NCBI GenBank assembly: GCA_902610175.1
Contig: CACLUR010000003.1
Span: forward strand, 1 to 64,000
Length of the DNA stretch: 64,000 nt
Reading direction: 5' to 3'
Origin: an uncultured Alphaproteobacteria bacterium
GTDB taxonomy: Bacteria; Pseudomonadota; Alphaproteobacteria; HIMB59
How positions within the stretch are numbered: the first letter of the stretch is position 1; each line of letters opens with the position of its first letter. The notes under the pieces are model-generated. The model worked only from the letters and a program-made list of their open reading frames with translations, was not told the DNA's origin and did no database searches. A program made the position numbers and the translations under genes. Of the stretch, positions 5,794 through 9,938 are shown one piece after another.

Positions 5794-5868
5794 TGGCGGT
5801 TCTGCAAGGATTCGAACCCTGAATTCTTGATCCGTAGTCAAGTGTGATATCCGTTTCACCACAGAACC
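5794..5868 (-). tRNA. tRNA-Arg (anticodon ACG)
   Basis: 75 bases, folded by eye. The acceptor arm pairs GGTTCTG with CAGAACC, the discriminator is G, and CCA is encoded. The D stem is GTGA/TCAC, the anticodon stem CTTGA/TCAAG with loop CTACGGA (anticodon ACG), and the T arm has TTCGAAT in the loop. A34 is presumably edited to inosine for CGN codons. The gene is intact. Its 5' half is repeated twice further right, marking it as the target of the island that follows, so its present promoter (right of 5868) may have come with the island. Confidence 0.97.
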
Positions 5869-5871
5869 TTA
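5833..5871. repeat. Attachment-site-like repeat, copy 1 (within tRNA-Arg)
   Basis: This 39-base stretch runs from the anticodon loop to three bases beyond the tRNA 5' end. It matches 8631-8669 with a single difference and 7505-7538 over 34 bases with one difference. It is the functional copy inside the intact tRNA gene. Confidence 0.85.
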
Positions 5872-5951
5872 ATCAAAGTATATCACCATTATTCAATCGT
5901 TGTACTTAATCCTACGAAACCTATACGGGCAAAGGTTTCAGAAAGGTTAAT

Positions 5952-6120
5952 ATGGGAAGTATAACTAAACGAAAGATGAAAGATGTAAAGGGCAATCGGT
6001 ATGTCTTGTTCCAAGCTGAAGTGAACATGAAGGGACAAAGATACTCCCGTGCTTTTCAATATATGCGGGAAGCAAGGGCTTACATTAGCGAACAAAAGGG
6101 ATTAATCAGTAGAGGTTGTT
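5952..6120 (+). pseudogene. Tyrosine recombinase (phage integrase) N-terminal remnant
   Basis: An ATG-initiated frame beginning MGSITKRKMKDVKG carries about 50 residues with the arm-type DNA-binding layout of phage integrases: basic start, RYVLFQAEVNMKGQRYSRAF strands, then an ARAYISEQKG helix. Recognisable similarity stops near residue 55. The frame then runs into unrelated sequence (to 6281), and no catalytic R-H-R-Y domain exists anywhere in the island. It starts 84 bases from the tRNA 5' end, the usual place for an integrase beside its attachment site. The family call is from pattern recognition, without a search. Confidence 0.65.
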
Positions 6121-6125
6121 TGTCA

Positions 6126-6158
6126 GGGGGAGGGAACAACGTTGTGTTTCCTCCACCC
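6126..6158. repeat. GC-rich imperfect inverted repeat
   Basis: A G-rich arm (GGGGGAGGGAACAAC) faces GTTGTGTTTCCTCCACCC with a perfect ACAACGTTGT centre. No U-tract follows on either strand. It could form a strong hairpin downstream of the minus-strand gene at 6192-6596, and it is strikingly GC-rich against its surroundings. Confidence 0.6.
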
Positions 6159-6168
6159 TTAGTGTTGC

Positions 6169-6193
6169 AGAGGTGTGAAATCTTCAAACCTCT
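6169..6193. repeat. Hairpin overlapping the stop codon of the 6192-6596 gene
   Basis: AGAGGTGTGAA, a 3-base loop, then TTCAAACCTCT: ten of eleven positions pair. It sits exactly at the end of the minus-strand hypothetical gene and could slow exonucleases or act as a weak terminator. No T-run follows, so it is not a classical intrinsic terminator. Confidence 0.6.
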
Positions 6194-6596
6194 AGTTAAA
6201 GGGGTAAAGTTCCCAAACTGCTTTGCCATCTGCATCGGCTTCGTAAGTAAATGCGTAAAATTTACCATTCAGTTCAGATAACGCTTCAGATGTGGTTTCG
6301 AATATAGCGCCGCCTCTAAAAGAAGTGCCTCCATCTTTCCTCTGGTTTCCGACACCCGTAGCTTTATATGTGGCGACACCTTCTGCACACATTACAACCC
6401 CAGCATAGGCATTTCCTGCCCATGAACCATCTGGTCTCATTTCAGCTGTAAATGCGCCCATAGACTGAACATCATGACCTAGCATCGTTCCGCTCCCTTC
6501 AGCAGTAATGTCCATAGCAGGTAAACCATATTTACCAGAGTCTATTGGCTTATTAGTTTCCTGTAATGTCATTGTTCCAATTTTATCACCAAGCAT
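6192..6596 (-). CDS. Conserved hypothetical protein, small soluble barrel-like
   Basis: 134 residues from an ATG preceded by a good AAAGGAG ribosome site. No signal peptide or membrane segment. The sequence is glycine-rich and strand-rich (GSGTMLGHDVQSMGAFTAEM, GVATYKATGVG, FRGGAIFETTSEAL) and ends near a FYAFTYEADADGKAVWELY strand. This pattern recalls small eight-stranded-barrel proteins of unknown function seen in many bacteria; the function is not known. It lies in the island with its own promoter region (6597-6783), transcribed towards the integrase remnant. Its codon use is less AT-biased than neighbouring core genes. Confidence 0.75.
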   Translation of the reverse strand: MLGDKIGTMTLQETNKPIDSGKYGLPAMDITAEGSGTMLGHDVQSMGAFTAEMRPDGSWAGNAYAGVVMCAEGVATYKATGVGNQRKDGGTSFRGGAIFETTSEALSELNGKFYAFTYEADADGKAVWELYPFN

Positions 6597-6783
6597 TGTA
6601 AATCTCCTTTTCTAAAATTTATAAAATAAATGATTATAATAATTACTTGTTTAAAATAAATTTAAATTTTTGTTATTATTTTATTACAAAGATTTGTAGA
6701 GTTTTAAAATTGAAAGCACTACGCTAATAAAAAAAAAGAGAAGAAACAAAACCAAAGTACTGGCACCCAAGACTTGATTTTTC

Positions 6784-7266
6784 ATGAAAAAAATACTCCC
6801 CATCCTTTTACTTTTTTGCCATGTATCGGTGGCCAGTGAAATGAAACTAATTGGAGAGGGAACATTGACCGTTTTATTCTTTAAAGTATATGACATTCGC
6901 CTCTTAGCCGACTCCAAGATCTTTTCATGGGAGAATAAATTTCAATTAGAGTTTGAATACAGACGTACCATTACTAAGGAGCGTGTGATTGACTCGTCTT
7001 TAAAGGAACTCAAACGCCAGCAAAACGTCACCGAGCAAAACCTCGAGGAATGGAAAACATACCTTGAAGAGGTCATCCAACCATTACAAGAGGGCAGCAA
7101 AGCAACAATAGAATGGAACCCCCAAGGAACAATTACGTTTCAAAATGAAGGGTTGAAGTCAGTGACGATTAAAGATGAGAGTTTTGCCCGCTCTTATCTA
7201 AAGATATGGCTAGGTGAGGAAACTTCCCAACCCAACCTCCAAAGTCAATTATTGGGCGAGAATTGA
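6784..7266 (+). CDS. Secreted chalcone-isomerase-like protein
   Basis: 160 residues with a cleavable signal peptide (about residues 1-17, ending SVASE). The mature part opens LIGEGTLTVLFFKVYDIRLLAD and continues with FQLEFEYRRTITKERVIDSSLKEL, then a final FARSYLKIWLGEE. This is the layout of the bacterial periplasmic chalcone-isomerase-like family, whose role is unclear and which should not be assumed to act on flavonoids. Base composition is visibly more GC-rich than the flanking genes, consistent with arrival on the island. It is the only gene on its transcript. Confidence 0.75.
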   Translation: MKKILPILLLFCHVSVASEMKLIGEGTLTVLFFKVYDIRLLADSKIFSWENKFQLEFEYRRTITKERVIDSSLKELKRQQNVTEQNLEEWKTYLEEVIQPLQEGSKATIEWNPQGTITFQNEGLKSVTIKDESFARSYLKIWLGEETSQPNLQSQLLGEN

Positions 7267-7334
7267 CAAAGGGTCTAATCAGAGGTTACATATAGCAAAA
7301 TGGAATACTACTTTAAAAAAGCAATAAATTAATA

Positions 7335-7412
7335 ATGGCAATAGAGATTAAAATCAAATCTGAGAATGCAAAAGGGATATATTTCATTACAGGCTCATTA
7401 CGTAGTACATAG
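7335..7412 (+). pseudogene. Possible second integrase N-terminal remnant (25 codons)
   Basis: An ATG frame of 25 codons, MAIEIKIKSENAKGIYFITG and onward, ends at TAG. The K.N.KGI(Y/W)(F/Y)ITG pattern resembles the first residues of another tyrosine-recombinase subgroup, different from the remnant at 5952. It lies about 100 bases left of repeat copy 2. It is too short for a firm call; the 7267-7617 stretch otherwise shows no gene, only this fragment and the repeat. Confidence 0.35.
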
Positions 7413-7504
7413 GTTTACATAGCGTAGAATGTTGATATGATTCTAAGCATTAACAACGATTATGTACGATTGATTGTTGGGCGATTAGGTTCACGTAGTA
7501 TCCT

Positions 7505-7538
7505 TAGCCAAGTGTGATATCCGTTTCACCACAGAACC
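7505..7538. repeat. Attachment-site-like repeat, copy 2
   Basis: 34 bases identical to tRNA-Arg copy 1 except for one position (TAGC versus TAGT). It covers the tRNA anticodon arm to the 5' end but is not followed by the 3' half, so no tRNA is made here. To its right lies a promoter-like flank shared with copy 3 (TATACTCTTTTT at 7552-7563). Confidence 0.85.
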
Positions 7539-7617
7539 ATTATCTTGATTTTATACTCTTTTTTTAGATAATAAACTTTTATACAATGTTCATTACGGAC
7601 TCATTACGGGCAATACT

Positions 7618-8520
7618 ATGAAAATATTCTTTCTTCTGTTTATTTTTCTACCCAGTTTAGTACTTGGTTCAAATTTTAATGAAATAAAAAAAGTTTTAAA
7701 ACAGGATGGTTTTGGAATAATAATGCCTGAGGAGTTTCATTCTTTAAATTCACCAAAAGCAAAAAATCCTATTTCAGTTAGTGATATTTCAATAATTGGA
7801 GACAAATCTATAATGTTTGAAGTAAACAACGGAGAGTGTGGAGAAGGGCCTAAATCAAGCGATTGTGATACTGATAGAGAGAGGTCTGAAATATATTATA
7901 GTCACGAAAAGTGGAAGGAGGAGAAGTGGTATAAGTTTTATATTTTGCTTCCAAAAGAATATAACTCTATCGCTCCATCAAAAATGTCACTAATTCAATG
8001 GAAAAGACATAATCCATCTAAAGTTTTAGTTATGTTTCAACACACTCATGCAGGATTGACTTTTAACAGAAACGGGACTTCTTTTGAGGACTCTCACATA
8101 GTTTTAAAAAGCAATGATGACCTTTTAGGACAATGGACAGAAATAATTTTTAATACTAATTGGCACCCAGATGAAAATAAAGGCTTCATGAGAGTATGGA
8201 TAGACGGCATTTTAAAAGTTGATTTCAAAGGAATTAGCAATACATCTGAAGGCGAAGAACTAAACCTTAGGTATGGATTATACGCTTCTGCAATCTCACG
8301 TTACAAAAAAGTATTTAATACCGAGATAATTCCACAGCGAGTCATTTATTTTGATGGTGTGAATGCGGAGTCTAAATGTGAAAAGTTACTAGATAAGACT
8401 GAATGTAATAAATTACTTTCTCAAACAATCGAAAAATATGAATTATTTATGTATGATAAAAATGATAAAAAATTTCATAACCATTCTATTGTTAAATTAC
8501 CAATAAATTTTTTAAAATAA
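7618..8520 (+). CDS. Secreted polysaccharide lyase-like protein (heparin-lyase-I-type jelly roll)
   Basis: 300 residues with a signal peptide (MKIFFLLFIFLPSLVLGS). The body has the pattern of the Polysacc_lyase (heparin lyase I-like) family: ERSEI in the first third, a WYKFYILLPKEY strand, FQHTHAG near the middle, then TEIIFNTNWHPDENKGFMRVWIDG, the strand pair closing this fold. The likely role is beta-elimination of uronate-containing glycans outside the cytoplasm; the substrate cannot be told. It is the sole cargo of island segment B and a plausible adaptive gene. Four cysteines sit in two pairs (about residues 75/84 and 254/262) and may form disulfides. Confidence 0.75.
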   Translation: MKIFFLLFIFLPSLVLGSNFNEIKKVLKQDGFGIIMPEEFHSLNSPKAKNPISVSDISIIGDKSIMFEVNNGECGEGPKSSDCDTDRERSEIYYSHEKWKEEKWYKFYILLPKEYNSIAPSKMSLIQWKRHNPSKVLVMFQHTHAGLTFNRNGTSFEDSHIVLKSNDDLLGQWTEIIFNTNWHPDENKGFMRVWIDGILKVDFKGISNTSEGEELNLRYGLYASAISRYKKVFNTEIIPQRVIYFDGVNAESKCEKLLDKTECNKLLSQTIEKYELFMYDKNDKKFHNHSIVKLPINFLK

Positions 8521-8630
8521 AAAGTTTAAATTAAAAATATTTTATTTTTATTACGGGTACAGAGATAAAATATTGTTAAAGCTCTAAGAATTGTATTGAT
8601 AATAAATGAATTAAAGAGACGTAGAATATT

Positions 8631-8669
8631 CGTAGTCAAGTGTGATATCCGTTTCAGCACAGAACCTTA
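8631..8669. repeat. Attachment-site-like repeat, copy 3 (distal end of island)
   Basis: 39 bases identical to copy 1 (5833-5871) except C to G at 8657. It ends the island; core-type genes resume at 8691. The right flank carries TATACTCTTTTT (8681-8692), also found right of copy 2, and probably represents the ancestral tRNA-Arg upstream region. Confidence 0.85.
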
Positions 8670-8690
8670 GTACTGATTTATATACTCTTT

Positions 8691-9110
8691 TTAAACTCTA
8701 AAATAGGCTTTTACCTGTGGTCGAAACATTAACAAAAGAGCAATAAATTGTATTAATGTGTTTAAACTTAAAATCGTTCTTATGCTCATTTCATTAATAC
8801 CAATCTCTGGAAAAGGCGAGAAAGGTGCTGAAAAAGAGTGTGATAAAGCTCCAAATAAATCAAAAATTCCAACCGCATTCCAAGCTAGCAAAATTCCCCA
8901 AAGTAAAGCTGATGGCTTTTTCCATATCCTATAAGCAAGAAATAATGCAGTAGTGCCTATCACGAAATCGCCAAGAAAAGCTATAGTCCAGTCAGATGAA
9001 GCTGCACGTTCACTTCCTATAGCTCCGAGTGTAAGAAAAAGACCAGAGCCAACTGCTCTGAACACCATCCATCCAGTTGTAAAAATTAATAATTTTACTT
9101 GAATATGCAT
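8691..9110 (-). CDS. Small integral membrane protein of unknown function
   Basis: 139 residues from the ATG at 9110; the frame also extends to a TTG at 9146 that is less likely. About four membrane segments are visible (LLIFTTGWMVFRAVGSGLF, DFVIGTTALFLAYRIW, LLWGILLAWNAVGIFDLFGA, LSLNTLIQFIALLLMF). No catalytic motif is recognisable. It diverges from the channel gene at 9150 across a 39-base gap, so they share a control region. It is the first gene outside the tRNA-Arg island; its last bases abut the distal repeat flank. Confidence 0.75.
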   Translation of the reverse strand: MHIQVKLLIFTTGWMVFRAVGSGLFLTLGAIGSERAASSDWTIAFLGDFVIGTTALFLAYRIWKKPSALLWGILLAWNAVGIFDLFGALSHSFSAPFSPFPEIGINEMSIRTILSLNTLIQFIALLLMFRPQVKAYFRV

Positions 9111-9149: not shown

Positions 9150-9938
9150 ATGAAAAAAACTTTTTTTAAAATCAGGGAAAGTAAAGTATTTCAATACACA
9201 GTTTTATTGATAATCATTTTTAATGCATTTACGATTGGTCTAAATACATACGAATTAGGTGAAATTTCAAGAATACTTATTAAATATCTAGATTATTTGA
9301 TAACCATATTTTTCGTTATAGAAATTACAATTCGTTTTATTGGTGAGCCTAAAAAATCAAATTTTTTAAAAAATGGTTGGAATATTTTTGATACTATCAT
9401 TGTATTAGTTTCCTTAATACCAATACCTAATAATTCTAGTTTTTTATTATTTAGATTATTAAGAGTATTTAGAGTTTTAAGAGTAATTTCAATTATACCT
9501 GAGCTAAAATTAATAATTGAGTCTTTGATCGGATCTCTAAAAAGAGTTTTTTATGTAAGTTTGTTGTTATTTATTATTCTCTACATTTACGCCACGATTG
9601 GCTCAATAGTCTTTTCTGATAATATACCTTCTCGATGGTCTGATGTGGGAGTTTCGATGATCACTTTATTTCAAGTTTTAACCCTTTCATCATGGGAGCA
9701 GGTTATGCTTCCCCTTCAAGACGTGCATTGGTGGGCATGGATTTATTTTTTTAGCTTCATAATTGTTTGTGCTATTACAATGTTAAATCTCTTAATTGCA
9801 ATTTTAGTTGATGTTGTTGTTAATCAGAATGATAAGAAAGAGGATGTTGCTAATATGAAACTAAGAAATAATGTTGAAAAGTTAAACGAACAATTTTCAG
9901 AAGAAATTAACCTAGATAAGTTAAAAAGAGACCAATGA
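9150..9938 (+). CDS. Single-domain voltage-gated ion channel (BacNav-like)
   Basis: 262 residues with the six-segment layout of prokaryotic voltage-gated sodium channels. S1 begins near residue 15. S4 lies near 100-113 with arginines at 102, 105, 108 and 111 every third residue. The pore helix and filter are near 172-186 and S6 at 200-222 (MLNLLIAILVDVVV). The C-terminal ~40 residues look like the usual helical coiled-coil tail. The filter reads TLSSWE (178-183), whereas characterised sodium channels such as NaChBac and NavAb have TLESW, so ion selectivity should not be assumed. Its stop overlaps the next ORF. Confidence 0.88.
   Translation: MKKTFFKIRESKVFQYTVLLIIIFNAFTIGLNTYELGEISRILIKYLDYLITIFFVIEITIRFIGEPKKSNFLKNGWNIFDTIIVLVSLIPIPNNSSFLLFRLLRVFRVLRVISIIPELKLIIESLIGSLKRVFYVSLLLFIILYIYATIGSIVFSDNIPSRWSDVGVSMITLFQVLTLSSWEQVMLPLQDVHWWAWIYFFSFIIVCAITMLNLLIAILVDVVVNQNDKKEDVANMKLRNNVEKLNEQFSEEINLDKLKRDQ

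Follow-up and report, generated by a model that had tools for sequence, protein, structure and literature searches.

The locus examined in this work raises the question of why one tRNA gene is accompanied by two further copies of its own front half, and of how those copies came to stand upstream of it. The window is the whole stretch of 64,000 nucleotides (nt) analysed here, which belongs to an uncultured bacterium of the HIMB59 clade under Alphaproteobacteria. ARAGORN identified one tRNA gene in the window, the intact tRNA-Arg(ACG) gene at 5794..5868 on the minus strand. The interval upstream of this gene (5869-8666) is likely a two-cassette array, in which small non-autonomous integrative cassettes were serially inserted and then reshuffled by homologous recombination. 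The insertion of cassettes at the tRNA gene is well supported because both empty sites and displaced 5' halves are observed.

The displaced tRNA halves and the same locus in relatives

The first 39 nt of the tRNA gene (5830..5868, minus strand) are referred to here as the core. Sequence comparison identified two displaced copies of the core on the same strand, one at 7500..7538 and a distal one at 8628..8666, and each of them differs from the tRNA at 2 of 39 positions. A repeat finder also returned three same-direction copies at 5829-5881, 7499-7551, and 8627-8679. A chance origin of the repeats was rejected, since a search of the whole genome gave each copy an E value of about 1.5e-11. The sequence-only reading of this stretch had reported a 39-base block (8631-8669 versus 5833-5871) and a 34-base block (7505-7538 versus 5835-5868) with one mismatch each, and both were confirmed when the sequence was checked. 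It had also stated that the 5' half and not the 3' half was duplicated. This is correct since the extra copies found at the locus are 5' halves, and integration at the 3' half of tRNA-Arg(ACG) was rejected for the same reason. The polarity is indeed unusual, as had been claimed, where the available text on Islander reports 3,760 islands with 3' fragments versus 159 with 5' fragments, that is, 159 of 3,919 islands (PMC4383910). The anticodon arm of the tRNA reads CTTGA-CTACGGA-TCAAG, and the core stops one base beyond the seven-base loop, which is expected if the crossover lies within the loop, as we would place it.

The comparison covered 52 genomes of the HIMB59 clade, a set that is identical for the genus and the family of the window. 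The window and 39 relatives with an exact copy of the tRNA-Arg(ACG) gene make up 40 loci; genomes with a cut or missing tRNA copy lie outside this set, and an exact tRNA is therefore a result of the selection. With up to nine mismatches counted, at least one extra 5' half was identified in 23 of the 40 loci and two were identified in eight loci. The resulting 31 core-to-core modules are 0.6-2.5 kb in length. The 31 displaced copies consist of 14 copies with no mismatch, eight with one, seven with two, and two with three, and an additional degenerate 5'-half copy is present in G030. The module right end used as a query matched 27 of the 52 genomes, 25 strongly (E <1e-20) and two weakly. The strong matches are located at the tRNA-Arg(ACG) locus in 24 genomes and at tRNA-Arg(TCG) in one (G023). 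The exact right-end pattern was found in 16 genome-contig stretches, 15 of which are from uncultured Alphaproteobacteria (AG-... isolates) and one from alpha proteobacterium HIMB59. A wider set of 385 genomes of the class, three of the genus included, was also searched. One search of this set returned G000, G046, and a weak match in G340 (E 0.003). The right-end search of the same set returned G000, G001, G046, and G211 (E 5e-5, tRNA part only), and outside the genus the right end gave nothing but that one weak match to the tRNA part.

At least five of the 40 loci (G017, G041, G050, G015, and G032) are empty, where no cargo separates the tRNA from the conserved gene that follows and the junctions match. 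This count leaves several loci with a different neighbour unclassed as empty or occupied. In G017, G041, and G050, the tRNA is followed by a homologue of the channel-protein gene at 9150-9938. In G015 and G032, it is followed after 24 bp by a homologue of the gene that starts at 8691, and the same gap of 24 bp (8667..8690) follows the distal core of the window. The empty site that had been predicted, with tRNA-Arg next to the 8691 gene, was found in these two genomes, and the different cargo expected between the same repeats was seen in other genomes.

At 80% identity, the 45-bp segments upstream of the tRNA in the 40 loci group into ten clusters. By eye, these clusters are of three unrelated kinds, which are native-like (26 of 40 loci), brought by the integrase-remnant module (12 loci), and brought by the cupin module (two loci). 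In the window, this region (5869..5913, minus strand) is brought by module 1 and is unrelated to the native-like block of the 26 loci. Since unrelated upstream regions occur among the loci, the upstream region of the tRNA is supplied by whatever adjoins the tRNA. It had been claimed that each integration gave the tRNA a new 5' half and a new upstream promoter. The part of this claim that concerns changing upstream regions stands, and the upstream region of the modules presumably acts as the tRNA promoter. Integration on the promoter side of the tRNA, as the sequence-only reading interpreted the locus, is thus supported. Promoter replacement also becomes directly testable here, since close relatives have unrelated regions upstream of the same tRNA gene.

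The module ends and the integrase question

In the proposed mechanism, the cassettes would have entered one by one through site-specific recombination within the anticodon loop of tRNA-Arg(ACG). Every cassette would bring a fresh tRNA 5' half together with its own upstream region, and the tRNA would stay whole. The previous 5' half would be pushed to the distal side, and in serial insertion every cassette would leave behind one 39-nt half. The cassettes would derive from integrase-bearing elements of the clade that insert 5' of tRNA genes. Because the integrase would have been lost, the cassettes could move only if an integrase acted in trans or if homologous recombination took place between their shared ends.

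The modules exhibit arm-like repeats near their ends. The left repeats consist of two units with a period of 11, about 52-54 bp after the core, and the right repeat pair precedes the next core by about 88-91 bp. When periods of 10-12 were tried, both repeat pairs were detected at fixed distances from the cores in 23 of the 31 modules. The repeats are of several types (ACGGG, ACCGG, TACACAC, and TAACACAC), and the left and right ends of a module agree in type. The left-right similarity exceeded 20,000 of 20,000 permutations with 11 types and 19,999 with nine types, in a set with one module picked per type and repeat-less modules omitted, which shows an association among repeat-bearing modules. 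We infer that the period-11 repeats are integrase arm sites, and a trans-acting enzyme that may still be active is likewise presumed.

No full integrase and no integrase halves were found in the modules, and one module type keeps a 52-residue integrase-like start. In the window, this remnant (5952..6107, plus strand) resembles the start of the tyrosine integrases of 314-327 amino acids (aa) in the clade. It is the top match when island proteins are searched with an integrase-start profile (E 5e-5, best domain 3e-4), which gives modest support to its putative descent from a clade integrase start. The remnant was found in 13 of the 52 genomes, in open frames of up to 139 aa. A search for tyrosine recombinases gave matches in 52 of the 52 genomes, many of which we take to be XerC/XerD-like by size and position. 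A further 18 recombinase matches were fetched with their surroundings. Integrases of 424 and 487 aa are located at tRNA-Arg(TCT) and tRNA-Asp, and 3'-half copies are present in five of six such stretches. Integrases of about 314-327 aa accompany a 41-nt 5'-half copy at tRNA-Ala (G032), a 40-nt 5'-half copy (G038) and a damaged 68-nt copy (G050) at tRNA-Met, and full tRNA copies with the integrase on the 5' side at tRNA-Gly (G051 and G003). At Ala, Met, and Gly, the integrases of this size lie on the 5' side of the tRNA, and visual inspection showed period-11 repeats close to the island ends.

The two modules of the window are each less than 2 kb and together span 2.8 kb. Module 1 has a single surviving left arm-like repeat unit (5922..5930, plus strand), recognised from its sequence and from relatives, versus two units in G039 and G046. 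Its cargo consists of an open reading frame for a 134-aa protein of unknown family (6192..6596, minus strand), which had no match in any family or homology search made, PHROG included, and of a Chalcone isomerase-like protein (6784..7266, plus strand; PF16036). Its right end (7386..7499) is degenerate in comparison with G046. Module 2 has a left arm-like repeat pair with a period of 11 (7590..7611, plus strand), visible in the sequence, and a polysaccharide lyase (7618..8520, plus strand; PF14099) whose start reads like a signal peptide. A single surviving right arm-like repeat unit (8550..8557, plus strand), again recognised from sequence and relatives, is followed by a right end of 65 bp (8563..8627) that is conserved in relatives. 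With one unit missing from each of two arm-like sites and with a degenerate middle junction, the array of the window is probably decayed.

Movement of the modules and alternative explanations

Modules of the same type exhibit differing order and neighbours among genomes. Across 66 same-type module pairs, which overlap and are non-independent, the median identity is 97.2% for the module versus 91.8% for panC, and the module exceeds panC by more than three points in 49 pairs. Between G000 and G033, the last 65 bp and the core are 99.0% identical and the 1.5-kb right flank is 99.5% identical, whereas identity falls to 37.9% in the preceding 400 bp, which are unrelated, and to 83.8% in the left flank. 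Ordinary homologous recombination also reshuffles the modules. This reshuffling, the missing full integrase, and the paired period-11 repeats of most modules had not been anticipated in the sequence-only reading. The serial accretion that had been suggested agrees with the stacked displaced halves, and the evidence on insertion order is mixed. In G022 and G026, the outer 5'-half copy has more mutations than the inner one, whereas G004 shows the reverse, with a perfect outer copy and two mismatches in the inner copy.

Several findings weigh against the proposed mechanism. A repeat pair was not detected at one or both ends in eight of the 31 modules, and cupin-type modules have no left repeat pair. 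The two repeat types of the Ala island differ, and in the G023 module at tRNA-Arg(TCG) the core is a hybrid and the ends do not match. The integrase at tRNA-Thr (G029) belongs to the same group of about 314-327 aa and has a 65-nt 3' copy. A cognate full integrase or attachment site of a free element (attP) was found neither in the genus (52 genomes), nor in viral contigs, nor in the 385 genomes of the class. The module falls below panC identity by more than three points in two of the 66 pairs, and recombination breakpoints lie inside module ends.

In another explanation, the modules now move by homologous recombination only, and insertions of long ago left the attachment-like (att-like) features behind as fossils. 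The cores and conserved ends together amount to much more than 100 bp of common sequence, across which imported DNA could be exchanged with no integrase, and no integrase was found with the modules. The identity pattern of G000 and G033, with a similar right end and flank and unrelated sequence before them, and the G023 module, with its hybrid core and unmatched ends, are what such swaps would produce. However, the first arrival of new module types exactly at the core is left unexplained, and the repeat types stay matched at both ends of most modules. We give this explanation a substantial chance that is somewhat short of even. It is compatible with cassette insertion, where both can hold and the confidences overlap, and homologous recombination alone may account for the recent movement.

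An origin of the modules as phage remnants, or as those of helper-carried phage satellites, with packaging and not an integrase driving their spread, is improbable. Such satellites are known in marine bacteria according to the available text of PMC11389934, and the small size, the missing integrase, and the tRNA site would suit them. However, none of four proteins matched PHROG, no phage record matched in one search and a second search gave only two chance-level matches, and no viral contig matched. A phage origin by similarity was rejected for want of PHROG or phage-record support. Repeats are also a well-known assembly hazard, but 23 of the 40 loci, each assembled separately, have the same anatomy with different cargo, and empty sites exist. 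An assembly artefact or a simple tandem duplication around the tRNA, with hardly any probability left to it, was ruled out on these grounds.

Known island types and other tRNA loci

The cassette array was compared with island types as described in the available text of each source. Islander requires an integrase and a length of 2-200 kb (PMC4383910). The locus resembles its 5'-fragment islands in the intact tRNA gene and the displaced 5' fragment, which lies upstream and is oriented like the gene. It differs in that the modules have no integrase within them, apart from the 52-residue remnant, and each is shorter than 2 kb, with the pair spanning 2.8 kb. Such modules would be rejected singly since Islander demands both an integrase and a length of 2 kb or more, and this class of modules may be overlooked by island finders with these requirements. 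The pTN3-like archaeal integrases use the tRNA 5' half as their site and supply a new promoter, a mode that is rare among bacteria according to that review (PMC8371274). The 5' half as the chromosomal attachment site (attB) and the new upstream region are shared with the modules. The restored tRNA is expressed from the promoter of the pTN3-like element, a role that is presumed here, and those elements are archaeal with an integrase split by integration, whereas the modules are bacterial and without a full integrase.

Cis-mobilizable elements (CIMEs) keep their att sites, have lost their integration genes, and are stacked in tandem by site-specific integration (PMC5704250). Both att sites are kept and integration genes are lost in relatives such as G046, and the att-like sites of the window are partly decayed in comparison. 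The modules differ from CIMEs in that no parental integrative and conjugative or integrative and mobilizable element was seen, and in that they are 0.6-2.5 kb in length on the 5' side of the tRNA. No transfer genes were noted among the identified cargo families, where part of the cargo was scanned. Additive tRNA cassettes have been described in Alteromonas (PMC4119200), Actinomarinales (PMC7771536), and Methylopumilus fGI-2 (PMC10872708). The modules resemble these flexible genomic islands as strain-variable tRNA cassettes with direct partial-tRNA repeats, and the Actinomarinales cassettes are likewise called small. The 5'-half polarity, the new upstream region, and the paired period-11 repeats set the modules apart from those descriptions. 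Tycheposons have a tyrosine recombinase and a length of 4-200 kb (PMC10872708), neither of which is found here.

No description of this array was found in the literature searched, whose coverage leaves out most subscription papers. The array belongs with additive or CIME-like tRNA islands, as a variant with 5' polarity, its own upstream region, and period-11 ends. It suggests that a small-genome ocean bacterium can maintain a changing gene pool via very small cassettes. A far broader idea, which we regard as speculative and rather doubtful, is an integron-like capture of genes on tRNA 5' halves throughout the HIMB59 genus. Integrase-less cassettes would each carry a spare front half and promoter, several dialects of arm repeats would serve different trans-acting integrases, and the cargo would largely be secreted proteins with one mobile signal-peptide leader on unrelated mature parts.

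The 20-nt repeat that is given as the last bases of tRNA-Lys in PMC10872708 reads like a tRNA 5' end when it is reverse-complemented, which is possibly the same 5' polarity in another clade. Another HIMB59 island carries phosphate genes and has no tRNA at its borders in the available text of PMC10734472.

The tRNA genes of the same genome were surveyed with 33 of 34 genes over the Rfam cut-off, one on contig 11 being left out, and with unequal flanks of mostly 6-9 kb. Displaced fragments were found near three of the 33 genes, which are Arg(ACG) with two 5' halves, Thr(GGT) with two 5' halves, and Gly(GCC) with one 3' half. The tRNA-Thr(GGT) gene on contig 1 forms a second 5'-half array (L213 6260-9152, halves at 6260-6297 and 7646-7682). 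The displaced 3' half of tRNA-Gly(GCC) is located about 4.4 kb downstream (L229 8689-13237) and exhibits the common polarity.

Displaced 5' halves are also present at tRNA-Arg(TCG), Thr, Ala, and Met. Those of tRNA-Arg(TCG) occur in nine of the 52 genomes as 11 copies, the G023 hybrid included, and the stretches viewed exhibit the same layout with other repeat types. The G023 module (L177 4941-6530) combines an Arg(ACG)-type right end and a hybrid core with a different left repeat type, a composition that points to a possible exchange between the two tRNA loci. In G050 (L163 7042-7111 and 10349-10425), the tRNA-Lys(CTT) gene called by ARAGORN is a damaged tRNA-Met copy beside an integrase, and the intact tRNA-Met is 3 kb away.

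A leader that is recognisable at the DNA level and encodes about MKTLLALLLLIPSLSWG was found in 37 of the 52 genomes (for example in L196, L168, L214, and L162), versus none with a reversed-pattern control. The 47 leader-bearing proteins form 32 groups with unrelated mature parts by blastp. All eight leader stretches that were fetched contain a tRNA, and five of the eight contain a displaced or duplicated tRNA copy.

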